64,000 nucleotides of DNA. Origin: Strigamia acuminata. Lineage: Eukaryota > Arthropoda > Chilopoda > Geophilomorpha > Linotaeniidae. The stretch covers positions 372,001 to 436,000 of the forward strand of contig OX442316.1 in the NCBI GenBank assembly GCA_949358305.1, given 5' to 3'. The notes under the pieces are model-generated. The model did not search any database, was not told the origin of the DNA, and was given only the letters and a program-made list of their open reading frames with translations. The position numbers were made by a program, and so were the translations under genes. Shown here one piece after another: positions 1-35,800 of the stretch (the stretch's first letter is position 1; each line of letters begins with the position of its first letter).

Positions 1-2
1 TT

Positions 3-812
3 TATGTAGACCCGGCACAAATGTCCAGCACCTCGACTCCACGAGGAGGATTTACGGAGCCACAACGCGAGCCGGAAACCCCCACCCCTGCGATTGATGG
101 AACTTCAGTCGTCTCGGCGGAAAACGAACCAATGTCAGTTGTTGCGTCTGATTCTCCGCCGGTTGCCTCCGATTCTGGTCTGCAAACCGCCGCTTCTCCA
201 GAGGGAACATCGACTAACAACATGATTGTAGCGACTATTCCGCTCCCCGAAGTAAGCGACGCTGCTGAACCGGTCATTTTACTGGTTCACCCATACATGC
301 CAAGACCAAACATGTCGCTCACGGAGCAAACTAAGGCGGAAGTGGAACATTATTTCCCAATTTTATTGGAAGCAGCTAAGCGTATTAGTGTGTCGATTTC
401 AAACGACCAAATTCCAGATTTGAGCGTGCCGCTGGCCGTGATCCAATGGATTTTTCATCCATCCCGGCCGGAATCCTTTCAAACTCGCTCTTTCATTTGG
501 TGTAAGATTTTGCAACAGGTCTCAGCAGCAGCACACCCATTGATTCGTGAGGGATGGCACTCTGGCTTACCCGACCATCACTTGGTTTTTTCCGAGCCAA
601 CCAGCGCTAACACCATTCCGTTAGGAGGGCCTGATCCCCTGGAAGTATTCACCGAGGAACAACACAGAATGCTCCTGAATCCCCTGGCCCATGACGTTGA
701 GCCAGATGCAGTACCGGAATTGGTAGCTATGCAACTTAATTCTCCACCCGCAGCCGTCTCGGAAGTTGTTACATCCATGGAAGGATTCATTGAGGATGAA
801 GAGTTGGACTAG
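3..812 (+). CDS. C-terminal part of an unrecognised ORF, probably of the 5' retrotransposon
   Basis: I do not recognise this protein. The frame is open from the first bases of the window to a TAG at 810-812, giving 269 residues; the first in-window ATG is at 21, so the true start is probably upstream. The first 80 or so residues are rich in Ser, Thr, Pro and Glu and look disordered. The middle (about residues 90-200) is more ordered, with hydrophobic stretches and several Trp and His residues. The C-terminus is acidic, ending EDEELD. No RT, RNase H, integrase, zinc-knuckle or membrane-envelope signature is visible. It lies upstream of a 3' LTR on the same strand, so it may be the tail of a Pol polyprotein or a third retroelement ORF. 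A host exon is the alternative. Its base composition is clearly richer in G+C than the AT-rich DNA after it, which supports real coding sequence. Confidence 0.5.
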   Translation, partial: YVDPAQMSSTSTPRGGFTEPQREPETPTPAIDGTSVVSAENEPMSVVASDSPPVASDSGLQTAASPEGTSTNNMIVATIPLPEVSDAAEPVILLVHPYMPRPNMSLTEQTKAEVEHYFPILLEAAKRISVSISNDQIPDLSVPLAVIQWIFHPSRPESFQTRSFIWCKILQQVSAAAHPLIREGWHSGLPDHHLVFSEPTSANTIPLGGPDPLEVFTEEQHRMLLNPLAHDVEPDAVPELVAMQLNSPPAAVSEVVTSMEGFIEDEELD

Positions 813-1458
813 AAAGCGTCAACGATGTCGGGATCCGTTACTTTCCCGATATCTTTCCTTTTAGGCAAGACCAGAAGTAACGAGTCCATTTTCTCCATCT
901 CCATTTCTTGACCCGAGTTGAAACAAAGATTTAGTCAGGTTCAGGTGTATTTTATGCCGTTTTTTGTGAATAATTCAAAGATCTTTAATATTTAAACTAA
1001 CAATTCTGTTAAAATTTGATTACGAGTCAATGTGAGTTTGTTTATATGAATACTAATTTTAATACTTGAATTTTAACGTGTAAAGTGTTATTTTGCAAAT
1101 CATTACATTTCCAGTGAGAAGTTAAGTTTTGTGAAAATAATTGTTAAATTTTATTAATCATTTGTTTGATACAAGAGTTTGGTGTTAGTTTAAGTTATCG
1201 CCTTTTCTTGATGCAGTTGTAAGTCCACCTGTAAAGAGAGATTGGAATTATTATTAATAATTGAGAGTTTTATAATCCTAATAAATATTTTTTGAAGCAT
1301 TTGATTAAGAAATACGCTTTATTTATACTATTAAGATATAAAATAAAGGTTTTTACTTACCAAGGATTACAGCTCCAGTTCCAGAGATGACAGTGTGGTC
1401 TTGATCCTCAAGATATTCGGAATAAATAGTATGTTAATACAGGTATTAACATATATTT
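813..1458 (+). other. Non-coding stretch between ORF and polypurine tract
   Basis: AT-rich sequence with no ORF of note, lying between the stop at 812 and the purine tract. It is probably the 3' untranslated part of the retrotransposon. Its last bases hold a perfect 11-bp inverted repeat (1430-1453). A 14-base string, AAGACCAGAAGTAA, near 865 also occurs near the end of the BEL/Pao ORF (about 31408). This is probably chance. Confidence 0.5.
1430..1453. repeat. Perfect 11-bp inverted repeat, 2-nt loop
   Basis: The arm TATGTTAATAC (1430-1440) is the exact reverse complement of 1443-1453, separated by AG. It sits 5 bp upstream of the polypurine tract and could fold in the element RNA next to the plus-strand priming site. 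Function unknown. Confidence 0.8.
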
Positions 1459-1467
1459 AAGGGGGAC
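1459..1467 (+). promoter_or_regulatory. Polypurine tract of the 5' retrotransposon
   Basis: The purine run AAGGGGGAC ends one base before the TGTGACG start of the LTR. This is the normal position of the RNase H-resistant primer for plus-strand DNA synthesis in LTR retrotransposons. Confidence 0.65.
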
Positions 1468-2058
1468 TTGTGACGGTTACACTGTCAAACACTTTGTTAA
1501 TATAGGACGAACATTTCACCGATAGATGGCGCTGGTACGTTTTAGCGGTAATTTCAAATTTCGACAATTTTTGAGTGAATAAAATATAAATTACTATTTA
1601 TATTTTATTCCACTGCAACTTTATACACTTTTAAATACTTTTGGATGTTTAAATACTAGTTGATTTATTTGTCACATAATTCTATTGAATTATGTGCAAA
1701 CTCTACACCTGGTGAAGTCACCCCCCATCACCCACTGTGAGTTGGACTCCTTTTGGATTATAGTCAAAGGGACTTAATCCAAAATGTGTCCTGCGTATCC
1801 AGTTCCTGTAGTGGACCTAGTAGAAGACTATGTCCTGAGTATCCACTTCCTATGATCTGGGATTGGATGGATTTGACTGCCCGGTGATCCCATTGGATCA
1901 CTGAACAGCTATTCTCCTCACCGAGTATATATCCCCCTGCAAAACGGATATAGCTCGCTCTTGTTCTGTTTTTGTTTGATACTGATATTACTTGAGCACA
2001 TATTATACTTCTCTGCGTTCCGACAATCCGTTGTAGAAATACTTTGTATTTAGTGTAA

Positions 2059-2325
2059 GTATCTAGAGTGGGTAGAAGACTCACAGACACACTTCCCGCC
2101 TCTTCATGCCAACATTCCGTTGTAGAAATGTAGTAACTAGAGTGGAGAGATTCACAGACACATTTAAGTGTAGTATCTAGAGTGGGGTACAACCCACAGA
2201 CGCACTCCCTCCAGCTTCATGCCAACATTCCGTTGTAGAGTGCAGAATCTAGAGTGGAGTAAAATTCACAGACGCATTGGTAATGTAGAATCTAGAGTGG
2301 AGTATTTATATTTCACAGACGCATT
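2059..2325 (+). repeat. Imperfect dimeric tandem repeat within the LTR
   Basis: Five diverged copies of a 33-39 bp motif, roughly an AGTATCTAGAGTGG start and a CACAGACGCA end, begin at 2059, 2132, 2172, 2244 and 2287. The spacing alternates (73, 40, 72, 43 bp), so the larger unit is a dimer of about 113 bp. The longer interval carries a second shared block, CATGCCAACATTCCGTTGTA, at about 2105 and 2219, with a partial copy near 2020. Copy 3 has a local inverted repeat (GTGGG...CCCAC). The position before the TATA-like box resembles U3 enhancer repeats of other LTR elements; that role is inferred. Confidence 0.7.
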
Positions 2326-2496
2326 ATCAGAGTGATCGACGCGGAGTAATTTCCCGGTTACTCTCCCGCCAGCCAGGACCGAGTGGAGTAATTTCCCGGC
2401 GATGGATAACCTTTCCTGCGAGATATTTCGATTCAATTCGTTATTGGTTTGACGGAACATTTAAGTCTAACTTAGATGTTGATTGCACTCGGGGCA

Positions 2497-2517
2497 AAAA
2501 TAGCTCGGCGCTATTTT
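2497..2517. repeat. Hairpin, 8-bp stem and 5-nt loop
   Basis: AAAATAGC (2497-2504) pairs with GCTATTTT (2510-2517) around TCGGC. It lies in the LTR just before the TATA-like box. Confidence 0.7.
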
Positions 2518-2560
2518 AATATATTTTACTTATTTTCATAGTTTTAGTTAAGTTTGTGAC

Positions 2561-2568
2561 TATAAAAT
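2561..2568 (+). promoter_or_regulatory. TATA-like box in the LTR
   Basis: TATAAAAT lies in the 3' half of the LTR, upstream of the poly(A) signal at 2948, which is the expected order for U3 promoter and R/U5. This is a motif match only in AT-rich DNA. Confidence 0.35.
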
Positions 2569-2628
2569 ATCATGATCAATTCCATAGAATTAATATGAAT
2601 ATTTATTCTCACATTGTTACATCTCGCA

Positions 2629-2652
2629 ATAATTATTGATTACAATAATTAT
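2629..2652. repeat. 10-bp perfect stem-loop in the LTR
   Basis: ATAATTATTG (2629-2638) and CAATAATTAT (2643-2652) are exact reverse complements around the loop ATTA. The outer flanks, ACATCTCGC and GCGATGT, can extend the pairing with bulges. It may be a structure in the R/leader RNA. Confidence 0.7.
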
Positions 2653-2947
2653 CTGCGACGCGATGTGTGTGACGATACAGAAAAGTCAACCGCACCTCTC
2701 GGATATAACCCACCCAGCCTAACCATTTACACGCCTTTTAGAACCAAACCCCGGACCATTTAGAAGCCAAAGCCATTCATAGATGACATCTTTTACGTCA
2801 CAGCAATAAGACCGTTACAAATTCTTATTGCATGACTGAAGCCTTCAAATGATATTATTTCAGGGCTTTTGCCAAATAACTGTATAGTTTAACTTATCGT
2901 CATTTTAGCCACTTGTAGGCATAGTATTTTTATAAGGTTCAAACCGG

Positions 2948-2976
2948 AATAAATGTTATATGTTTTGAGAAAACAT
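2948..2976 (+). terminator. Poly(A) signal followed by a hairpin
   Basis: AATAAA at 2948-2953 is followed within 7 bases by a 7-bp hairpin (ATGTTTT 2960-2966, AAAACAT 2970-2976, loop GAG). Within the LTR this is a good candidate for 3' end formation of the element transcript. Confidence 0.5.
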
Positions 2977-3094
2977 CAGGTTTGCATATTTTACATTTTC
3001 ACACGGATAGTTCACACTTTAGTTTAGCAATTGCTATCTCCAGAAGGTAATCGTCACAGACTTAGCACAAACACCACAAGACCAATGTCTCTAA

Positions 3095-6000
3095 ATGTTC
3101 AGAAATAGTGTTTAAACCTTAGTAGAAGGCTCCAATGTAAGTTTTAGAAACATCCAACCAATGATTTGGGAGAATAGACTTTTGATCTCATCACAGTTGA
3201 CTTAGCACAAACACCACAAGACCAATGTCTCTGAACGTTCAGAAATAGTGTTTAAACCTTAGTAGAAGCCTTCAATATAAGTTTTAGCAACACCCAAGCA
3301 TTAAATTTTGAAAAAAAAATTTTGAACTCATTTCACATCGCAGTTGACTTAGCACAAACACCACAAGACCAATGTCTCTGAATGTTCAGAAATAGTGTTT
3401 AAACCTTAGTAGAAGGCTCCAATGTAAGTTTTAGAAACATCCAACCAATGATTTGGGAGAATAGACTTTTGATCTCATCACAGTTGACTTAGCACAAACA
3501 CCACAAGACCAATGTCTCTGAACGTTCAGAAATAGTGTTTAAACCTTAGTAGAAGGCTCCAATGTAAGTTTTAGAAACATCCAACCAATGATTTGGGAGA
3601 ATAAACTTTTGATCTCATCACAGTTGACTTAGCACAAACACCACAAGACCAATGTCTCTGAATGTTCAGAAATAATGTTTAAACCTTAGTAGAAGCCTTC
3701 AATATAAGTTTTAGCAACACCCAAGCATTAAATTTTGAAAAAAAAATTTTGAACTCATTTCACATCGCAGTTGACTTAGCACAAACACCACAAGACCAAT
3801 GTCTCTGAATGTTCAGAAATAGTGTTTAAACCTTAGTAGAAGGCTCCAATGTAAGTTTTAGAAACATCCAACCAATGATTTGGGAGAATAGACTTTTGAT
3901 CTCATCACAGTTGACTTAGCACAAACACCACAAGACCAATGTCTCTGAACGTTCAGAAATAGTGTTTAAACCTTAGTAGAAGGCTCCAATGTAAGTTTTA
4001 GAAACATCCAACCAATGATTTGGGAGAATAAACTTTTGATCTCATCACAGTTGACTTAGCACAAACACCACAAGACCAATGTCTCTGAATGTTCAGAAAT
4101 AGTGTTTAAACCTTAGTAGAAGGCTCCAATGTAAGTTTTAGAAACATCCAACCAATGATTTGGGAGAATAGACTTTTGATCTCATCACAGTTGACTTAGC
4201 ACAAACACCACAAGACCAATGTCTCTGAACGTTCAGAAATAGTGTTTAAACCTTAGTAGAAGGCTCCAATGTAAGTTTTAGAAACATCCAACCAATGATT
4301 TGGGAGAATAAACTTTTGATCTCATCACAGTTGACTTAGCACAAACACCACAAGACCAATGTCTCTGAATGTTCAGAAATAATGTTTAAACCTTAGTAGA
4401 AGCCTTCAATATAAGTTTTAGCAACACCCAAGCAATAAAATTTGAAAAAAAAATTTTGAGCTTATTTCACATCGCAGTTGACTTAGCACAAACACCACAA
4501 GACCAATGTCTCTGAATGTTCAGAAATAGTGTTTAAACCTTAGTAGAAAGCTCCAATGTAAGTTTTAGAAACATCCAACCAATGATTTGGGAGAATAGAC
4601 TTTTGATCTCATCACAGTTGACTTAACACAAACACCACAAGACCAATGTCTCTGAACGTTCAGAAATAGTGTTTAAACTTTAGTAGAAGGCTCTAATGTA
4701 AGTTTTAGAAACATCCAACCAATGATTTGGGAGAATAAACTTTTGATCTCATCACAGTTGACTTAGCACAAACACCACAAGTCCAATGTCTCTGAATGTT
4801 TAGAAATAGTGTTTAAACCTTAGTAGAAGCCTTCAATATAAGTTTTAGCAACACCCAAGCAATAAATTTTGAAAAAAAAATTTTGAGCTTATTTCACATC
4901 GCAGTTGACTTAGCACAAACACCACAAGACCAATGTCTCTGAATGTTCAGAAATAGTGTTTAAACCTTAGTAGAAGGCTCTAATGTAAGTTTTAGAAACA
5001 TTCAACCGATGATTTGGGAGAATAGACTTTTGATCTCATCACAGTTGACTTAGCACAAACACCACAAGACCAATGTCTCTGAAAGTTCAGAAATAGTGTT
5101 TAAACCTTAGTAGAAGGCTCCAATGTAAGTTTTAGAAACATCCAACCGATGATTTGGTTGAATAGACTTTTGATCTCATCACAGTTGACTTAGCACAAAC
5201 ACCACAAGTCCAATGTCTCTGAATGTTCAGAAATAGTGTTTAAACCTTAGTAGAAGCCTTCAATATAAGTTTTAGCAACACCCAAGCAATAAATTTTGAA
5301 AAAAAAATTTTGAGCTTATTTCACATCGCAGTTGACTTAGCACAAACACCACAAGACCAATGTCTCTGAATGTTCAGAAATAGTGTTTAAACCTTAGTAG
5401 AAGGCTCCAATGTAAGTTTTAGAAACATCCAACCGATAATTTGGGAGAATAGACTTTTGATCTCATCACAGTTGACTTAGCACAAACACCACAAGACCAA
5501 TGTTTCTGAATGTTCAGAAATAGTGTTTAAACCTTAGTAGAAGGCTCTAATGTAAGTTTTAGAAACATTCAACCGATGATTTGGGAGAATAGACTTTTGA
5601 TCTCATCACAGTTGACTTAGCACAAACACCACAAGACCAATGTCTCTGAAAGTTCAGAAATAGTGTTTAAACCTTAGTAGAAGGCTCCAATGTAAGTTTT
5701 AGAAACATCCAACCGATGATTTGGTTGAATAGACTTTTGATCTCATCACAGTTGACTTAGCACAAACACCACAAGACCAATGTCTCTGAATGTTCAGAAA
5801 TAGTGTTTAAACCTTAGTAGAAGGCTCCAATGTAAGTTTTAGAAACATCCAACCAATGATTTGGGAGAATAGACTTTTGATCTCATCACAGTTGACTTAG
5901 CACAAACACCACAAGACCAATGTCTCTGAACGTTCAGAAATAGTGTTTAAACCTTAGTAGAAGGCTCCAATGTAAGTTTTAGAAACATCCAACCAATGAT

Positions 6001-26233: not shown

Positions 26234-26237
26234 GACT
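26234..26237 (+). repeat. Target site duplication GACT, left copy
   Basis: GACT, the last four satellite bases before the 5' LTR, is repeated at 32828-32831 right after the 3' LTR. Joining the flanks at one copy restores an uninterrupted satellite monomer (GAATCGACTTTTGATC), which confirms a clean integration. Confidence 0.85.
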
Positions 26238-27595
26238 TGTTGCTAGCAACATAAAGGAAAGCTGCTAAACGTCTTAAAAATTAGTCATCTGGAATTATTA
26301 AAAAGGGTTTTTAATATTTATCTTAGATTGGGAATTTAATTAGACACTTATTTGAATATAAGTCTTCTTTGAGTTAGTTTGAGTGAATTTCTCAGTACTG
26401 GTTGATCTGACCGGATAAATCTGGGAAGAAAAGAGTTCTTACATTAGTTATTTATCCACTTAGAATTTATTTTCTATCTTGTTTACCTGTGTTATGCATG
26501 TTTTGATGTTTCCAAGTGTTTTCCTGTTTCCAGTCCACTACTGTCAATGTAGTGACAAGGTGTAATGATGCTCTCAGACAGCAAAAGGGTACTAGAATGA
26601 GAAATGTATGTTATTATCAGTTTTAAGCTGTTTCAATCAATTTCTGTTTGTTTTCTGTATATTACTAACCAATTAAGCGTTTTGTTAACTTAGATTGTGT
26701 GTAGCCTGTCTAGTGAGCTAATTTCAAGCCTTTTTATCTTCCTGCAAGTGATCTCTGTTTACATTGTCGGCCATTACTGTGGGAGTGGTCTACTTGTATC
26801 TGTAAAGAGAGGAGAAAATGTTTAATCCCAAAGAGTTTTTGTGGGTTCTGATTAATAATTAATCACTTAATTATTATGCAATGTAAAAGTGTTAAGTTTA
26901 AGATTTATCTGTGTTGATTTATAACTTAACTTCTGCACTTACTGTAAAGTTGCCAGCTCATTGGTCTAAAATGTCTTTACTTATTCTTTTCTCTATTTTA
27001 TGAGTTGTTCAGTGTGTTTTAGAGTGAATAATTTAGTTCTCAATGAGCATTGTGTTTAGAGACTGTTGTTAATGTATACTTTTGCATTTAATGTCAAATA
27101 CTTGCTGTTAGGCTTATGTGTTTTCAACTATTAACTTCTACGGTAGTTTTGTTGTGCCAGCAGTACTTATTTCTCTTTACAAGCACTTAGAGACCTCTGT
27201 AACTTTAAGTGCAAGTGTCCTTATACAATGTGGAGATAGTTACACTTGTTGTTTCTTATTATTGTTAAAGTGTGACTTCTTTGTAAAATCCTCGTGATTC
27301 AATTGTAGTAGTCTTGTTAAGAATTTAGAGAATAAAATGGTTGCTTTTTATTTCTCTCCAAGTCTCATTTCTCTATACAACCAGAAAGCAATGTGCAGTG
27401 AGTAGAAAAATCCTCCTTCCTCCTCCTTGAACTCACCAGTGGCAGATCATCATGTGAAGCAGCAAGTTCAATTCCAGTGTTTGCATTTCTTCAAGTCTTT
27501 GGCCAACTTCTGTGTATCAGTTTTAGCCAAGCAGCAGTCAAGTATTGCCGCCCCTCCTTCTGGCCTGGTTGTCACCTGCGACCTTGCCAGAAACA
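26238..27595 (+). repeat. 5' LTR of the BEL/Pao-type element (1358 bp)
   Basis: It begins TGTTGCTAGCAACA, itself a 14-bp palindrome, and ends GAAACA, giving canonical TG...CA termini. It matches the 3' LTR at the same length with only two differences seen by eye. A poly(A) signal lies near the 3' end (27331). Short ORFs crossing this LTR start at non-ATG codons or run into the leader and are not credible genes. Confidence 0.95.
27331..27336 (+). terminator. Poly(A) signal in the 5' LTR
   Basis: AATAAA is followed by a T-rich stretch. The same site in the 3' LTR (32563-32568) would be the one used to end the element transcript. Confidence 0.5.
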
Positions 27596-27598
27596 ATT

Positions 27599-27616
27599 TG
27601 GTACCGTGAACCAAGG
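27599..27616 (+). promoter_or_regulatory. Primer-binding site
   Basis: TGGTACCGTGAACCAAGG starts three bases after the 5' LTR. It begins TGG, the complement of a tRNA CCA end, and lies where minus-strand synthesis is primed in LTR elements. I cannot name the matching tRNA without a tRNA set. Confidence 0.75.
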
Positions 27617-28020
27617 ATTTCTTCCAGTTATCTCAGTGGACCTTCATGTGTGCTGCAAAATTCATCAGTGGGTTTTGTTCTCAAGCTGTGCAAAGCTTTT
27701 ATGTGTAAAGTGCCATTGAAGCTGTGCCACTACAGTGAAGTGTATGCTCTCGTCAGCCTTTCACAGGCAAAAAAGTGGGTTTTTCAAGTTGGATTCTCAA
27801 ATTGTCAAGATGGTCAAGATGTTTTTCAACTTGGATCAAGCAAGGCTTCGAGAGTACGAGCGATCCTGCACGACAATCAATTCCAAACACAACGCAATGT
27901 ACATCCTACAAGAAGATTTGAAGAAATAATTATTAAGAATTATTATTTAAATAGAATAATATCCGAATTTGCTGCTGTAATTATTTCAAAAAGAGTTTTT
28001 GATTAGAAACTGGTGTAGTT

Positions 28021-28034
28021 GGGGGGAGAAGAAG
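28021..28034 (+). other. Polypurine run in the leader
   Basis: GGGGGGAGAAGAAG is the strongest purine tract in the element, but it is about 380 bp upstream of the gag start rather than next to the 3' LTR. It could be a displaced or internal plus-strand primer, or chance. Confidence 0.4.
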
Positions 28035-28416
28035 TTTAAGTCTTAACCATTTGATAAAATTCTCGATTCCAGTTTGTGGAATTTAGAGAATATCCAGTGA
28101 ATTAGTGAATAATACCAAGCTTTAGTGTTGGTATCCCAATTTAAAACGAGTATCTAGTCAGAAACTCAATTGTGAAAATAAGAGAATTGTCAATTACCTT
28201 TAATTATTGAATTTTGGGGGTTAAATTGCCAATCCTGTTAACATCTCGTGTGTTTCAATCCTGTTAACAGCTTGTGGATATCCATCCTGTTTTTGTGTGT
28301 TCAGTAAATCCTAGAGTGTAAAAGAATTAGACAATTTCTTGTTAACCAATTTAGTCAGTTAAGTTGAGTTTGAATCCTGAACTGATCCTTGAATTCTTCA
28401 TTTCTCGGTGAGGATT

Positions 28417-31400
28417 ATGGCTACATTATCCGCTGCTGATCTCGAGGAAAAGGAGGTCATTTGGAAAGCAAAGGCTCAAGGAGCCGAGGATCTGCTGGGA
28501 TCTTCAGTCAACATTCTAGACGGAGGAGAGCTGGAAGCCATGCAAATAACGGTTGACCAGCAATTGAGTGATCTCGCCGACGAATTGAAAGCTCTTAAAG
28601 ACGAGTCAAAAAGAGAGGACTATTTAGCGGGGCTTCAACGAATTGAAGACATTAGAACCAGAGTAAATTTATTGAAGCAAAGAGCAAAAGTGTCTGGAAA
28701 AATGGCAGGGCAATTTGGTTCCCATCCGGGACAGAATTCCAGTTTAAACCAGACGTCCGCTTCATCTAGGAGAAACACGAGATTGCCGAAAACCGACATT
28801 GCCAAATTTAGTGGCGATGCAACTGAATATAGAGGTTTTGCGAATTTATTCGAATCAGCAGTTGATCAGAACACGGAGCTTTCGAACGTGGAAAAGCTTA
28901 TATATCTGAGGTCATGCTGCACTGGGGCTGCAGAATCCGCAATCAAGTCGTACCCAATAACTGATGACGCCTACCCATTAGCGAAAAATACATTGGAGAG
29001 TCTATTCGGTTCTGAAAACACGCAGAGAAATGCTATTTCAAAGATGATTAGGGAGTCGAAACCTGTTTTCGATCTCTACCCAATCGAGCCACTCAAAGCT
29101 CTATTCACGTCATTGGCATCTGCTGTCCGGACCATGGCGCAACTGTCTGTGTCAGTTGACACTACTGGAACGTACCTTATTCCAGAACTACTTAGAAAAT
29201 TTCCACCGGAGATCTCCCAACGTTTTTACCGAAAGCATCAAGGAAAAGTTGATGATGTTAACGTTTTTCTGGACTTCGTAGCAACCGAGATACAACTGGC
29301 TGAATTGTCGGAAGAAAGCGTTCTCCTTAAGCGCGCTCATCTGAAGAAGTCAGAAAAATTTGAGAAAACTTCAAAGGAAACAAGAGAAAGACCAACTGGA
29401 ACCATGTCCTCATTCGTGACTTCCGAGAATGGAAAATTGAGTATGAATTCCAAGTCAAATCCAAACCGCAAACCCGCCTGCGCTTATTGTGATGGTGATC
29501 ACGCACACGCAAATTGTGATGCGGATCTCGATGTACCAGCGAGGATCGAAATAGTGAAGAAGAAACGACTTTGTTTCAACTGCTTGAGATATAACCACAC
29601 AGCCAAAGAATGTACCGTGAAGTTTTGTTGTCGCTTGTGTGGTGGAAGACATCACACATCGATCTGCAACAAAAACAACAAAGAAAAAGCGATTACACCA
29701 AAAGAAGAAAACGTGTCTACTAATGTATCGCTTACCGAGTCGGTGGAGATTCAACTGATGGTCTTCACTGCTCTTTTTGTGAAGAAAAATGGAGACATGT
29801 ACCCCGTCCGCGGATTATTAGATCCAGGAAGCCATCGCTCCTACGTCACGAAGAGACTAGTAAATAAATTCCGGATGCAAAAGATCGAGACACTACACAC
29901 GATGACACAGTGTCTGCTCAACAAAAAGCCAGTTCCGACGACACATGATGTCTTTAGATTCGAACTACAATCAAGACACGGAACAAAAAAGACATCAATC
30001 CTTGCATTAGAAACCGACACACTCCCGAAAGTCAAAGGGATAATTGGAGCAGAAGCCATAAAGCAAGTCCAATCACTCGGACTTGAGATGGCTGAGATAC
30101 ATCCGTCAGAATCGGAAGACATTGACGTCTTATTAGGAAGCAACGCATGGTGGAAGATTTGTCAAGGTGGAAGCCGAAAAATCAACGACGAGTTGGGATT
30201 AATGGAGACAATTTTTGGGTGGATTCTAAACGGTCGACTGAAACCAAACAACCCGCTTGAAGAAAACATGGCAGCGTGCAACATTTCTTGCATGGCGGTC
30301 GAGTCCAAAGAAGAAGTGATCTCAAATCAACCTGAAAATGACGAAAACAAAATAGTCCAATTAATTCCGAAATCACTGCCCAACATGAATGGCGAACCCG
30401 GTGTGAATAAACAGACAGACGTCACACCTTCTTGTTTTGCCGCGAGCCTCTCCAGTGGTCTGGAGAAAGAGGAACTGGACACCACCCTCCAAAAAACGAA
30501 AAAGTCGTTCAAGGATGGAGGATTGGTCAACAGAACTCCAAGCTCGGACATGAAGCCGGAATTACGAGGGCGAAATCAGTTAGAGTCAGGGAGAAAGAAC
30601 GTCGAATTACTTACAAACCAAGTGCCCAGTTTACCCAAATTGTGTGCAATCGTGAGATGGAGTGGAAACGTGATTCTGAATTTCTGGAAAAAGAAAATTG
30701 ATTTGTCAACCAATCAAAAGGGAATTCATCTCATCATTGGTCCAATGTATGCGGGAAAAACGACCAAGTTATTGAAGCTTTTAGAAAAGGAAGAGAAGAC
30801 GTCGTCCCTGCTAATTAAACACTCCAATGACGATCGTTACAGTAAAACCGAAGTCGTGACCCACGACGGTCATCGACGAGAAGCAATTGCTACCAGTAGC
30901 CTAACCAATGCTGTGGAAAAAACGAAATTAGTGAAGACAATCAGAATTGACGAAGGACAGTTTTTTCCCGACATTTTTACTTTTTCAAATGAAATGGCTG
31001 AGCAAAAGAAAAAGGTAATAGTCGCCGCATTAGACGTCGACTTCAAGAGGAAGCCATTTGATCAGATATCCGAGTTAGTTCCACTAGCCGAGTCTGTTGT
31101 GAAACTACAAGCAAAATGTTATTTTTGCGGAGATAAAGCTGAATTTTCAAGACGAATTTCGCACGAAACCAGAGTCAAGATGATAGGAGGGATCGACAAA
31201 TACAAACCAACCTGTCGAGTATGTTTCTCAAAGCCCATGAAGTCTCTAGAGACGAAAAGGAAAATCATCAACGGAATTATTCGACTTAGTTGTATGATTG
31301 TCAACCGAAGAATACCTCCGTGGATACCAAATTTGATCCGTCAAAGAATCATGCCACCCAGAGTGAAATACAAAAAGGTGAAAGAAGTCTCCCAAATATT

Positions 31401-31434
31401 ATCATCAAAGACCAGAAGTAATCAAACTAAATGA
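28417..31434 (+). CDS. Gag-protease-thymidine kinase fusion polyprotein
   Basis: A single open frame of 1005 aa. I chose the ATG at 28417 because it has a good eukaryotic context (A at -3, G at +4); the in-frame GTG at 28408 is unlikely to be used. Residues 1-115: acidic, heptad-like Gag N-terminus. 125-300: DUF1759-like Gag core (KFSGD at 130). 355-367, 386-399 and 405-417: three CCHC zinc knuckles. About 455-608: DUF1758-like aspartic protease with D469-P-G-S where families usually have D-S/T-G, ending in the GWILNG motif typical of BEL/Pao. 609-768: linker. 769-939: TK1-type thymidine kinase. 940-1005: basic tail. RT, RNase H and integrase are missing. The kinase should phosphorylate thymidine to dTMP with ATP. 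As part of Gag it would be expected in virus-like particles, made in equal amounts with Gag. Start, domain order and frame are seen; activity and packaging are inferred. Confidence 0.93.
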   Translation: MATLSAADLEEKEVIWKAKAQGAEDLLGSSVNILDGGELEAMQITVDQQLSDLADELKALKDESKREDYLAGLQRIEDIRTRVNLLKQRAKVSGKMAGQFGSHPGQNSSLNQTSASSRRNTRLPKTDIAKFSGDATEYRGFANLFESAVDQNTELSNVEKLIYLRSCCTGAAESAIKSYPITDDAYPLAKNTLESLFGSENTQRNAISKMIRESKPVFDLYPIEPLKALFTSLASAVRTMAQLSVSVDTTGTYLIPELLRKFPPEISQRFYRKHQGKVDDVNVFLDFVATEIQLAELSEESVLLKRAHLKKSEKFEKTSKETRERPTGTMSSFVTSENGKLSMNSKSNPNRKPACAYCDGDHAHANCDADLDVPARIEIVKKKRLCFNCLRYNHTAKECTVKFCCRLCGGRHHTSICNKNNKEKAITPKEENVSTNVSLTESVEIQLMVFTALFVKKNGDMYPVRGLLDPGSHRSYVTKRLVNKFRMQKIETLHTMTQCLLNKKPVPTTHDVFRFELQSRHGTKKTSILALETDTLPKVKGIIGAEAIKQVQSLGLEMAEIHPSESEDIDVLLGSNAWWKICQGGSRKINDELGLMETIFGWILNGRLKPNNPLEENMAACNISCMAVESKEEVISNQPENDENKIVQLIPKSLPNMNGEPGVNKQTDVTPSCFAASLSSGLEKEELDTTLQKTKKSFKDGGLVNRTPSSDMKPELRGRNQLESGRKNVELLTNQVPSLPKLCAIVRWSGNVILNFWKKKIDLSTNQKGIHLIIGPMYAGKTTKLLKLLEKEEKTSSLLIKHSNDDRYSKTEVVTHDGHRREAIATSSLTNAVEKTKLVKTIRIDEGQFFPDIFTFSNEMAEQKKKVIVAALDVDFKRKPFDQISELVPLAESVVKLQAKCYFCGDKAEFSRRISHETRVKMIGGIDKYKPTCRVCFSKPMKSLETKRKIINGIIRLSCMIVNRRIPPWIPNLIRQRIMPPRVKYKKVKEVSQILSSKTRSNQTK
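30721..31233 (+). other. Captured TK1-type thymidine kinase domain (residues 769-939)
   Basis: All landmarks of type II thymidine kinases are present in order. P-loop GPMYAGKTT at 775-783 (Lys781 binds ATP phosphates). DRY at 806-808 and THDG at 815-818. DEGQFF at 845-850, with Glu846 as the expected catalytic base. LDVDFKRKPF at 872-881. LAESVVKL at 890-897. Zinc-binding cysteines C901, C904, C933 and C936, with the lasso segment IGGIDKY at 923-929 between the pairs. The length (171 aa) matches a full catalytic core, with no stop or frameshift. The AESVVKL and GGxDKY motifs resemble animal and poxvirus-type TK1 more than bacterial enzymes. The DVDF string differs from the DGTF of animal TK1 and recalls bacterial forms. 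No intron is present, as expected for a sequence carried through RNA. Confidence 0.93.
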
Positions 31435-31469
31435 TGGGTTGTTCGCACTTTCTTTTCGCCGGCAATCTA
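31435..31469 (+). other. Short gap between ORF stop and 3' LTR, no clear polypurine tract
   Basis: Only 35 bp separate the TGA from the 3' LTR. The bases next to the LTR (CGCCGGCAATCTA) are mixed, not a purine run, although this is where the plus-strand primer is expected. Confidence 0.7.
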
Positions 31470-32827
31470 TGTTGCTAGCAACATAAAGGAAAGCTGCTAA
31501 ACGTCTTAAAAATTAGTCATCTGGAATTATTAAAAAGGGTTTTTAATATTTATCTTAGATTGGGAATTTAATTAGACACTTATTTGAATATAAGTCTTCT
31601 TTGAGTTAGTTTGAGTGAATTTCTCAGTACTGGTTGATCTGACCGGATAAATCTGGGAAGAAAAGAGTTCTTACATTAGTTATTTATCCACTTAGAATTT
31701 ATTTTCTATCTTGTTTACCTGTGTTATGCATGTTTTGATGTTTCCAAGTGTTTTCCTGTTTCCAGTCCACTACTGTCAATGTAGTGACAAGGTGTAATGA
31801 TGCTCTCAGACAGCAAAAGGGTACTAGAATGAGAAATGTATGTTATTATCAGTTTTAAGCTGTTTCAATCAATTTCTGTTTGTTTTCTGTATATTACTAA
31901 CCAATTAAGCGTTTTGTTAACTTAGATTGTGTGTAGCCTGTCTAGTGAGCTAATTTCAAGCCTTTTTATCTTCCTGCAAGTGATCTCTGTTTACATTGTC
32001 GGCCATTACTGTGGGAGTGGTCTACTTGTATCTGTAAAGAGAGGAGAAAATGTTTAATCCCAAAGAGTTTTTGTGGGTTCTGATTAATAATTAATCACTT
32101 AATTATTATGCAATGTAAAAGTGTTAAGTTTAAGATTTATCTGTGTTGATTTATAACTTAACTTCTGCACTTACTGTAAAGTTGCCAGCTCATTGGTCTA
32201 AAATGTCTTTACTTATTCTTTTCTCTATTTTATGAGTTGTTCAGTGTGTTTTAGAGTGAATAATTTAGTTCTCAATGAGCATTGTGTTTAGAGACTGTTG
32301 TTAATGTATACTTTTGCATTTAATGTCAAATACTTGCTGTTAGGCTTATGTGTTTTCAACTATTAACTTCTACGGTAGTTTTGTTGTGCCAGCAGTACTT
32401 ATTTCTCTTTACAAGCACTTAGAGACCTCTGTAACTTTAAGTGCAAGTGTCCTTATACAATGTGGAGATAGTTACACTTGTTGTTTCTTATTATTGTTAA
32501 AGTGTGACTTCTTTGTAAAATCCTCGTGATTCAATTGTAGTAGTCTTGTTAAGAATTTAGAGAATAAAATGGTTGCTTTTTATTTCTCTCCAAGTCTCAT
32601 TTCTCTATACAACCAGAAAGCAATGTGCAGTGAGTAGAAAAATCCTCCTTCCTCCTCCTTGAACTCACCAGTGGCAGATCATCATGTGAAGCAGCAAGTT
32701 CAATTCCAGTGTTTGCATTTCTTCAAGTCTTTGGCCAACTTCTGTGTATCAATTTTAGCCAAGCAGCAGTCAAGTATTGCCGCCCCTCCTTCTGGCCTGG
32801 TTGTCGCCTGCGACCTTGCCAGAAACA
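31470..32827 (+). repeat. 3' LTR of the BEL/Pao-type element (1358 bp)
   Basis: Same length and sequence as the 5' LTR apart from A at 32752 (G at 27520) and G at 32806 (A at 27574). It ends GAAACA and is followed directly by the GACT target duplication and satellite. It carries the poly(A) signal AATAAA at 32563-32568. Confidence 0.95.
32563..32568 (+). terminator. Poly(A) signal in the 3' LTR
   Basis: AATAAA followed by a T-rich run. This is the likely processing signal for the gag-protease-TK transcript. Confidence 0.5.
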
Positions 32828-35800
32828 GACTTTTGATCTCATCACAGTTGACTTAGCACAAACACCACAAGACCAATGTCTCTGAACGTTCAGAAATAGT
32901 GTTTAAACCTTAGTAGAAGGCTCCAATGTAAGTTTTAGAAACATCCAACCAATGATTTGGGAGAATAGACTTTGATCTCATCACAGTTGACTTAGCACAA
33001 ACACCACAAGACCAATGTCTCTGAATGTTCAGAAATAGTGTTTAAACCTTAGTAGAAGCCTTCAATGTAAGTTTTAGCAACATCCAAGCAATGATTTGGG
33101 AGAATAGACTTTTGATCTCATCACAGTTGACTTAGCACAAACACCACAAAACCAATGTTTCTGAATGTTCAGAAATAGTGTTTAAACCTTAGTAGAAGGC
33201 TCCAATGTAAGTTTTAGAAACATCCAACCAATGATTTGGGAGAATAGACTTTTGATCTCATCACAGTTGACTTAGCACAAACACCACAAGACCAATGTCT
33301 CTGAATGTTCAGAAATAGTGTTTAAACCTTAGTAGAAGGCTCCAATGTAAGTTTTAGAAACATCCAACCGATGATTTGGGAGAATTGACTTTTGATCTCA
33401 TCACAGTTGACTTAGCACAAACACCACAAGACCAATGTCTCTGAATGTTCAGAAATAGTGTTTAAACCTTAGTAGAAGGCTCCAATGTAAGTTTTAGAAA
33501 CATCCAACCAATGATTTGGGAGAATAGACTTTTGATCTCATCACAGTTGACTTAGCACAAACACCACAAGACCAATGTCTCTGAACGTTCAGAAATAGTG
33601 TTTAAACCTTAGTAGAAGCCTTCAATATAAGTTTTAGCAACACCCAAGCATTAAATTTTGAAAAAAAAATTTTGAGCTTATTTCACATCGCAGTTGACTT
33701 AGCACAAACACCACAAGACCAATGTCTCTGAATGTTCAAAAATAGTGTTTAAACCTTAGTAGAAGGCTCCAATGTAAGTTTTAGAAACATCCAACCAATG
33801 ATTTGGGAGAATAGACTTTTGATATCATCACAGTTGACTTAGCACAAACACCACAAGACCAATGTCTCTGAACGTTCAGAAATAGTGTTTAAACTTTAGT
33901 AGAAGGCTCCAATGTAAGTTTTAGAAACATCCAACCAATGATTTGGGAGAATAAACTTTTGATCTGATCACAGTTGACTTAGCACAAACACCACAAGTCC
34001 AATGTCTCTGAATGTTTAGAAATAGTGTTTAAACCTTAGTAGAAGCCTTCAATATAAGTTTTAGCAACACCCAAGCAATAAATTTTGAAAAAAAAATTTT
34101 GAGCTTATTTCACATCGCAGTTGACTTAGCACAAACACCACAAGACCTATGTCTCTGAATGTTCAGAAATAGTGTTTAAACCTTAGTAGAAGGCTCCAAT
34201 GTAAGTTTTAGAAACATCCAACCAATGATTTGGGAGAATAGACTTTTGATCTCATCACAGTTGACTTAGCACAAACACCACAAGTCCAATGTCTCTGAAT
34301 GTTTAGAAATAGTGTTTAAACCTTAGTAGAAGCCTTCAATATAAGTTTTAGCAACACCCAAGCAATAAATTTTGAAAAAAAAATTTTGAGCTTATTTCAC
34401 ATCGCAGTTGACTTAGCACAAACACCACAAGACCTATGTCTCTGAATGTTCAGAAATAGTGTTTAAACCTTAGTAGAAGGCTCCAATGTAAGTTTTAGAA
34501 ACATCCAACCAATGATTTGGGAGAATAGACTTTTGATCTCATCACAGTTGACTTAGCACAAACACCACAAGACCAATGTCTCTGAATGTTCAGAAATAGT
34601 GTTTAAACCTTAGTAGAAGGCTCCAATGTAAGTTTTAGAAACATCCAACCGATGATTTGGGAGAATTGACTTTTGATCTCATCACAGTTGACTTAGCACA
34701 AACACCACAAGACCAATGTCTCTGAATGTTCAGAAATAGTGTTTAAACCTTAGTAGAAGGCTCCAATGTAAGTTTTAGAAACATCCAACCAATGATTTGG
34801 GAGAATAGACTTTTGATCTCATCACAGTTGACTTAGCACAAACACCACAAGACCAATGTCTCTGAACGTTCAGAAATAGTGTTTAAACCTTAGTAGAAGC
34901 CTTCAATATAAGTTTTAGCAACACCCAAGCATTAAATTTTGAAAAAAAAATTTTGAGCTTATTTCACATCGCAGTTGACTTAGCACAAACACCACAAGAC
35001 CAATGTCTCTGAATGTTCAAAAATAGTGTTTAAACCTTAGTAGAAGGCTCCAATGTAAGTTTTAGAAACATCCAACCAATGATTTGGGAGAATAGACTTT
35101 TGATATCATCACAGTTGACTTAGCACAAACACCACAAGACCAATGTCTCTGAACGTTCAGAAATAGTGTTTAAACTTTAGTAGAAGGCTCCAATGTAAGT
35201 TTTAGAAACATCCAACCAATGATTTGGGAGAATAAACTTTTGATCTGATCACAGTTGACTTAGCACAAACACCACAAGTCCAATGTCTCTGAATGTTTAG
35301 AAATAGTGTTTAAACCTTAGTAGAAGCCTTCAATATAAGTTTTAGCAACACCCAAGCAATAAATTTTGAAAAAAAAATTTTGAGCTTATTTCACATCGCA
35401 GTTGACTTAGCACAAACACCACAAGACCTATGTCTCTGAATGTTCAGAAATAGTGTTTAAACCTTAGTAGAAGGCTCCAATGTAAGTTTTAGAAACATCC
35501 AACCAATGATTTGGGAGAATAGACTTTTGATCTCATCACAGTTGACTTAGCACAAACACCACAAGTCCAATGTCTCTGAATGTTTAGAAATAGTGTTTAA
35601 ACCTTAGTAGAAGCCTTCAATATAAGTTTTAGCAACACCCAAGCAATAAATTTTGAAAAAAAAATTTTGAGCTTATTTCACATCGCAGTTGACTTAGCAC
35701 AAACACCACAAGACCTATGTCTCTGAATGTTCAGAAATAGTGTTTAAACCTTAGTAGAAGGCTCCAATGTAAGTTTTAGAAACATCCAACCAATGATTTG

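Follow-up and report, generated by a model that had tools for sequence, protein, structure and literature searches.

A retrotransposon that carries a complete thymidine kinase (TK) domain was identified in a 64,000-nucleotide (nt) stretch of the Strigamia acuminata genome (contig OX442316.1, positions 372,001 to 436,000; hereafter, the window). The transposed unit, at 26238–32827, interrupts a satellite array whose repeat unit is ~140 base pairs (bp) long. The element is of the BEL/Pao type, with a TK1-type kinase fused in frame to Gag and a protease-like region, and its insertion footprint supports transposition of the unit as a whole. Its anatomy comprises paired long terminal repeats (LTRs), a target site duplication, and one frame that contains Gag, the protease-like region, and the complete TK. 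We consider it, with a probability of about 0.72, to be an LTR retrotransposon that derives from BEL/Pao, is non-autonomous, and transposed recently; in this account, the part of pol that encodes reverse transcriptase (RT), RNase H, and integrase gave way to a spliced TK1-type transcript. The sequence results come from the single copy of the element in the window, in which the following features were annotated.

26234..26237, no strand: left target site duplication, GACT (identical to the right 4-mer)
26238..27595, + strand: 5' LTR, 1358 bp (LTR comparison; AATAAA at 27331)
27596..28416, + strand: 5' leader, 821 bp (between the end of the 5' LTR and the ATG)
27599..27616, + strand: candidate primer binding site, TGGTACCGTGAACCAAGG, separated from the LTR by 3 nt (begins with TGG)
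28417..31434, + strand: single open reading frame (ORF) of 1005 amino acids (aa), in the order Gag, protease-like region, linker, thymidine kinase, tail (ORF list; shuffle control)
31435..31469, + strand: segment between the ORF and the 3' LTR (without an adjoining purine tract)
31470..32827, + strand: 3' LTR, 1358 bp (LTR comparison)
32828..32831, no strand: right target site duplication, GACT (identical to the left 4-mer)

The two LTRs differ at only 2 of 1358 sites (27520 G/A and 27574 A/G; 99.85% identity), indicating that the copy is young and has had little time for decay. They have TG...CA termini (5' LTR TGTTGC...AAACA), and the GACT on either side of the element constitutes a 4-bp target site duplication, so that the LTR pair and target duplication of BEL/Pao elements are both present. 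To reconstruct the empty site, the flanks were joined with an assumed duplication of 0–8 bp, and the resulting 50-mers were counted in the array minus the 200 bp adjoining the element. The site with one GACT matched the rest of the array exactly 19 times, and duplication lengths of 0–3 and 5–8 bp gave zero exact 50-mer matches in the array. When up to two mismatches were allowed, the 4-bp site matched the array 178 times and the 5-bp site 17 times, whereas the other lengths gave 0 matches. The 4-bp duplication and the exact empty site indicate integrase-mediated insertion of the complete unit, the TK included.

Between the LTRs lie 3874 bp, which apart from the ORF contain only the 821-bp leader and, behind the stop codon, a further 35 bp. 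The candidate primer binding site begins with TGG, the complement of the CCA end of a tRNA; no tRNA genes were found in the window. A TTG-initiated ORF of 153 aa (27545–28006), with no Pfam match, starts inside the 5' LTR and overlaps part of the leader. Rfam gave no match at gathering scores in positions 1–34000 of the window.

The long ORF is divided as follows, all on the + strand.

28807..29232, +: Gag region, DUF1759 (PF03564) (Pfam E = 2e-17, aa 134–275; 2.8e-18 on the piece alone)
29479..29667, +: triple Cys-His box, CX2CX3HX4C, CX2CX4HX4C, and CX2CX3HHX3C (motif)
29815..30234, +: aspartic protease-like region, LLDPGS-X99-LLG and GWILNG, triplet DPG (motifs; weak DUF1758 match)
30235..30720, +: linker, 162 aa, no recognised domain (Pfam on the piece 30220–30720)
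30721..31248, +: TK1-type thymidine kinase domain (Pfam match 30724–31227; PDB chain 2wvj)
30739..30762, +: P-loop GPMYAGKT (aligned to GPMFSGKS)
30949..30966, +: DEGQFF motif (motif and alignment)
31117..31224, +: Cys pairs CYFC and CRVC (motif and alignment)
31249..31431, +: C-terminal tail, 61 aa, no recognised domain (Pfam on the piece 31231–31431)

A preliminary description of this DNA had claimed an uninterrupted ORF of 1005 aa with BEL/Pao Gag and three zinc knuckles, and both claims were borne out. The frame is open without interruption from the ATG at 28417 to 31434, with an in-frame GTG nine bases upstream at 28408, from which the Pfam amino acid positions are numbered. Its stop-free run of 1008 codons compares with a maximum of 225 in 300 single-base shuffles of 28408–31469 across six frames. 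DUF1759, which we take to be the BEL/Pao Gag domain, was matched with E = 2e-17, and the zinc knuckles were located by motif at 29479–29517, 29572–29613, and 29629–29667; the Pfam zf-CCHC match was under the cut-off (16.9 vs 20.8 bits). The first two knuckles fit the patterns given for BEL/Pao elements in PMC554778 (papers are cited here by PMC number for excerpts of their text), and the third shares the HH doublet, although its last residue is C and not the H printed in that excerpt.

The description had also named a protease, and this stood only in part. The motif pair LLDXG-X99-LLG is present, with L replacing I in the second motif (LIG); in the Sinbad element the corresponding motifs are ALLDSGS-X98-LIG (PMC554778). 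Of the three Pfam families proposed in the description as a check, TK (8.4e-54) and DUF1759 were found, whereas DUF1758 remained below its cut-off (E = 0.024, 14.7 bits vs 22). Furthermore, the active-site triplet is DPG (DPGS instead of D(S/T)GS), which departs from the D(T/S)G of BEL/Pao proteases, and triplets other than D(T/S)G are considered likely to be inactivating (PMC554778). Intactness of every recognised catalytic residue, which the description had claimed for the TK, holds there (P-loop, DEGQFF, and Cys pairs) but not for the protease, and the DPG triplet suggests that the product would be processed by a helper's protease or that the TK would stay joined to Gag.

In the linker piece, the sole Pfam match was below the cut-off (GLYCAM-1, E = 0.024), and the tail piece yielded zero Pfam matches. 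No difference in codon usage from the Gag–protease part was detectable for the TK (p = 0.59), the linker (0.53), or the tail (0.95), in a comparison with low power. The codon-position G+C of the tail differs from that of the remaining ORF, from which one might guess that the tail was formerly non-coding sequence.

The TK domain was matched by the Pfam TK profile with an E value of 8.4e-54 and 182.5 bits (cut-off 20.6) at aa 773–940, covering profile positions 3–176 of 176, a score that rejects a chance match. In a search of PDB chains, the best match was the cytosolic thymidine kinase 2wvj (residues 21–191; 146 bits), followed by 2j87 (142) and 4uxh (141); we take these to be the human TK1, vaccinia, and trypanosomatid enzymes, respectively. 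Identity was 80/169 to 2wvj (47%) and 77/167 to 2j87 (46%). The P-loop aligned to its counterpart, DEGQFF presumably holds the catalytic Glu, and CYFC and CRVC are presumably the zinc-binding Cys pairs that flank the lasso loop; GGIDKY was also present in the alignment with the PDB chains. At one lasso position, where 1w4r and 1xbt have Thr, the query shares its Ser with 2j87 and 2wvj, so this variant is known from other TK chains. The prokaryotic NCBIfam TK models matched below their cut-offs (best NF003296, E = 4e-42, 144.5 bits vs 183). A phage origin was also rejected: 64 phage records matched, all with <60% identity, and identity was 28–36% among the 15 matches listed. Compared with the 46–47% identity to 2j87 and 2wvj, the values for these listed phage TKs indicate that a eukaryotic or poxvirus-type TK is nearer, and the scores of 2wvj and 2j87 are too similar to tell whether the donor was an animal or a virus. 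A defence-system reading of the TK was also set aside, since the PADLOC matches were only marginal (E = 0.0009 and 0.0013) and were attributed to the shared P-loop. Structure models predicted without an alignment were unusable (mean predicted local distance difference test scores of 32 and 31). The TK domain is wholly open in one frame and has no intron, suggesting capture from spliced RNA. The TK is most likely potentially active, tethered to Gag, and present by capture.

Pfam scans of the ORF and of separate pieces of it (Gag, zinc region, protease, linker, and tail) recognised no reverse transcriptase, RNase H, or integrase. Pol hidden in other frames was also considered and discarded, as no pol domain was matched in the 10 scanned of the 40 other stop-free segments (at least 45 codons, both strands of the element). 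Because these domains were not recognised, the element is taken to be non-autonomous; such LTR elements rely on active counterparts (PMC11963269). The proposal in the preliminary description that the element uses the TK for its own reverse transcription is therefore not supported; any benefit from the TK would go to a particle with a helper-derived polymerase. Gag, the Cys-His box, and the protease motifs point to BEL/Pao descent, whereas the lack of recognised RT, RNase H, and integrase domains, together with the DPG triplet and an LTR as long as 1358 bp, argues against standard membership. On this evidence, the element appears to be a non-autonomous derivative of BEL/Pao rather than a standard member. 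In scans of viral contigs and prokaryote genome contigs, which as single-sequence scans reach close relatives only and which cover collections where a relative is unlikely to occur, no relative was found.

A mechanism consistent with these features would begin with template switching between the element RNA and a TK mRNA, which may have formed the join. LTR-driven RNA would then be translated into a Gag–protease–TK protein, so that part of the Gag in a particle might bear the kinase; the DPG protease would probably be unable to free the TK, unless the protease of a helper cuts it. The element RNA could be packaged by the Gag–protease–TK protein or by the Gag of a helper, presumably an autonomous relative, which would also supply reverse transcriptase and integrase in trans. 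The reverse-transcribed product would then insert with a 4-bp duplication.

Several points weigh against this account. It is built on a single copy of the element, and the mRNA origin of the TK is suggested solely by the uninterrupted domain. The scan for pol in other frames covered 10 of the 40 segments, and some of the remaining 30 are as long as 82 codons. The LTR of 1358 bp lies outside the range of 100–900 bp given for BEL-Pao LTRs in the excerpt of PMC7642597. No purine tract abuts the 3' LTR; within the 200 nt that precede it, the closest purine run of at least 7 stops 82 nt short of it. This is odd for a reverse-transcribed unit with near-identical LTRs, whose plus-strand priming it leaves unexplained, and it tells against too simple a view of the element.

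Two explanations of why the TK is present are compatible with the anatomy described above. The TK may be a selfish passenger, a cargo that persists by chance and is bound to decay, and we give this an even chance. The youth of the copy fits such a passenger, which would have had little time to decay, and captured genes are common in plant transposons, with 400 in maize, 672 in rice, and 1343 in sorghum (cited in PMC7264820). However, the TK domain is full length and retains its motifs, whereas none of the segments captured by the maize element Bs1 has a full-length ORF (PMC13317346), and a high percentage of the LTR-captured genes of sorghum are still functional (PMC7264820).

Alternatively, the TK may be an accessory enzyme under selection: a Gag-tethered kinase would make deoxythymidine monophosphate (dTMP) in or near the particle and raise the yield of reverse transcription by the helper's RT in cells where deoxythymidine triphosphate (dTTP) is low. 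The checked TK motifs are present at 47% identity to 2wvj, whereas the protease-like region of that frame lacks an active-type triplet, and the dUTPase of LTR elements offers a parallel. However, in this single copy the intactness of the TK may merely reflect recent capture, and the element has no recognised polymerase of its own. Moreover, TK yields dTMP and not dTTP, which requires two further kinase steps, so any benefit would depend on host kinases. A benefit via local dTMP supply is possible, and selection for the enzyme itself is a tentative suggestion that we think is probably wrong. The fuller proposal, of a retrotransposon lineage with its own salvage enzyme, in which each Gag–TK fusion would carry a kinase into the particle, feed the helper's reverse transcription from on-site thymidine, and be kept by selection at low dTTP, is somewhat more doubtful still.

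It is improbable that the element is instead a deletion derivative of an autonomous BEL/Pao lineage that carried TK between protease and RT, the present copy having lost RT, RNase H, and integrase. The position of the TK after the protease-like region is consistent with such a lineage, as is the dUTPase-like sequence that sits between protease and RT in planarian Gypsy-like, fungal, and rotifer LTR elements (PMC6431247), and the similarity of TK and Gag–protease codon usage, in the low-power comparison above, would be expected after long residence. However, the tail and linker contain no recognisable remnant of pol, and the contig scans, with their reach of close relatives only, revealed no relative. 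An assembly or sequencing chimera of a retroelement and a TK gene is scarcely credible: although a single copy in a long satellite array is hard to assemble, the LTRs are paired, the target duplication is exact at both ends, and the TK shares the frame of Gag, the end of which lies only 35 nt from the 3' LTR; a false join would thus need two matching breaks. The target duplication makes a false join at the ends very unlikely, and together with the exact empty site it led us to set such a join aside; an internal assembly join is unlikely.

Beyond the element, most of the window is occupied by the satellite array (3100–26237 and 32832–64000), of which 218.7 copies were counted in 33000–64000. 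Variant units with a spacing of 139–147 bp recur in order, suggesting a higher-order repeat. Positions 1–3100 are non-satellite sequence and contain a 5'-open ORF (3–812; 269 aa) with no Pfam match, short direct repeats at 1990–2304, and a purine tract, AAGGGGGA, at 1459, followed by CTTGTGACGG, which looks like the start of the 3' LTR of another retroelement.

The preliminary description knew of no LTR retrotransposon that encodes a thymidine kinase, and our literature search agrees: no such description appeared in open-licence titles or abstract starts among the matches listed, a statement that leaves out three papers that contain both retrotransposon words and thymidine kinase (PMC5784592, PMC4982230, and PMC11619804). 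Exact phrases linking retrotransposon or Gag to thymidine kinase were found in no paper of the open-licence literature. The excerpt of PMC7593179 attributes the thymidine kinase of Meloidogyne graminicola to horizontal transfer and does not place it in a retroelement. In the literature excerpts covered, gene capture by LTR elements concerns pieces of plant host genes, envelope-like genes, dUTPase, and the ORF3 enzymes of rotifers. A complete TK domain on BEL/Pao Gag between near-identical LTRs would be a clean case of a cellular-type enzyme replacing pol.

In general architecture, acutely transforming retroviruses are similar, with a cellular coding sequence fused to Gag in place of pol and movement that depends on a helper, but they are infectious vertebrate agents that carry signalling proteins, whereas the present element carries an enzyme of nucleotide salvage. 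The movement of maize Bs1 is also helper-dependent. Bs1 is an LTR element with parts of cellular genes, and its chimeric gene is transcribed and translated (PMC13317346). In the manner of such a transducing element, the LTR pair described here encloses a cellular-type coding sequence, Gag is retained, and pol domains were not found; however, Bs1 is a plant element, whereas in the present one an entire enzyme domain is fused in frame to a BEL/Pao Gag. BEL/Pao elements have been called metazoan (PMC3118150). With BEL/Pao members such as Sinbad, the element shares the DUF1759 Gag, a triple Cys-His box with HH in the third finger, and LLDXG and LIG-like motifs (PMC554778), together with TG...CA LTRs and a short target duplication. 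It differs from them in that RT, RNase H, and integrase were not found, in the DPG triplet, the 1358-bp LTRs, and the C at the end of the third finger, and in carrying a TK.

Captured glycoproteins in mosquito Pao elements indicate that the BEL/Pao group takes up genes. Anakin, a mosquito Pao element with a chuvirus glycoprotein, resembles the present element in its captured foreign gene and in that non-autonomous versions have been noted, but there an envelope-like glycoprotein was added to a pol-bearing element, rather than an enzyme replacing pol (PMC7642597). In the rotifer TelKA2n, a non-autonomous family, gag lacks its end and pol is largely missing, but an env-like ORF has been kept (PMC5408684). 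The planarian giant Gypsy-like elements and the rotifer elements Juno, Vesta, and TelKA carry a nucleotide-metabolism enzyme, dUTPase, after the protease, as the present element carries TK, but their dUTPase is accompanied by RT and the remainder of pol (PMC6431247, PMC5408684). This dUTPase after the protease is the nearest functional parallel, and the Strigamia element makes it testable whether retroelements profit from enzymes of their own that supply deoxynucleoside triphosphates.

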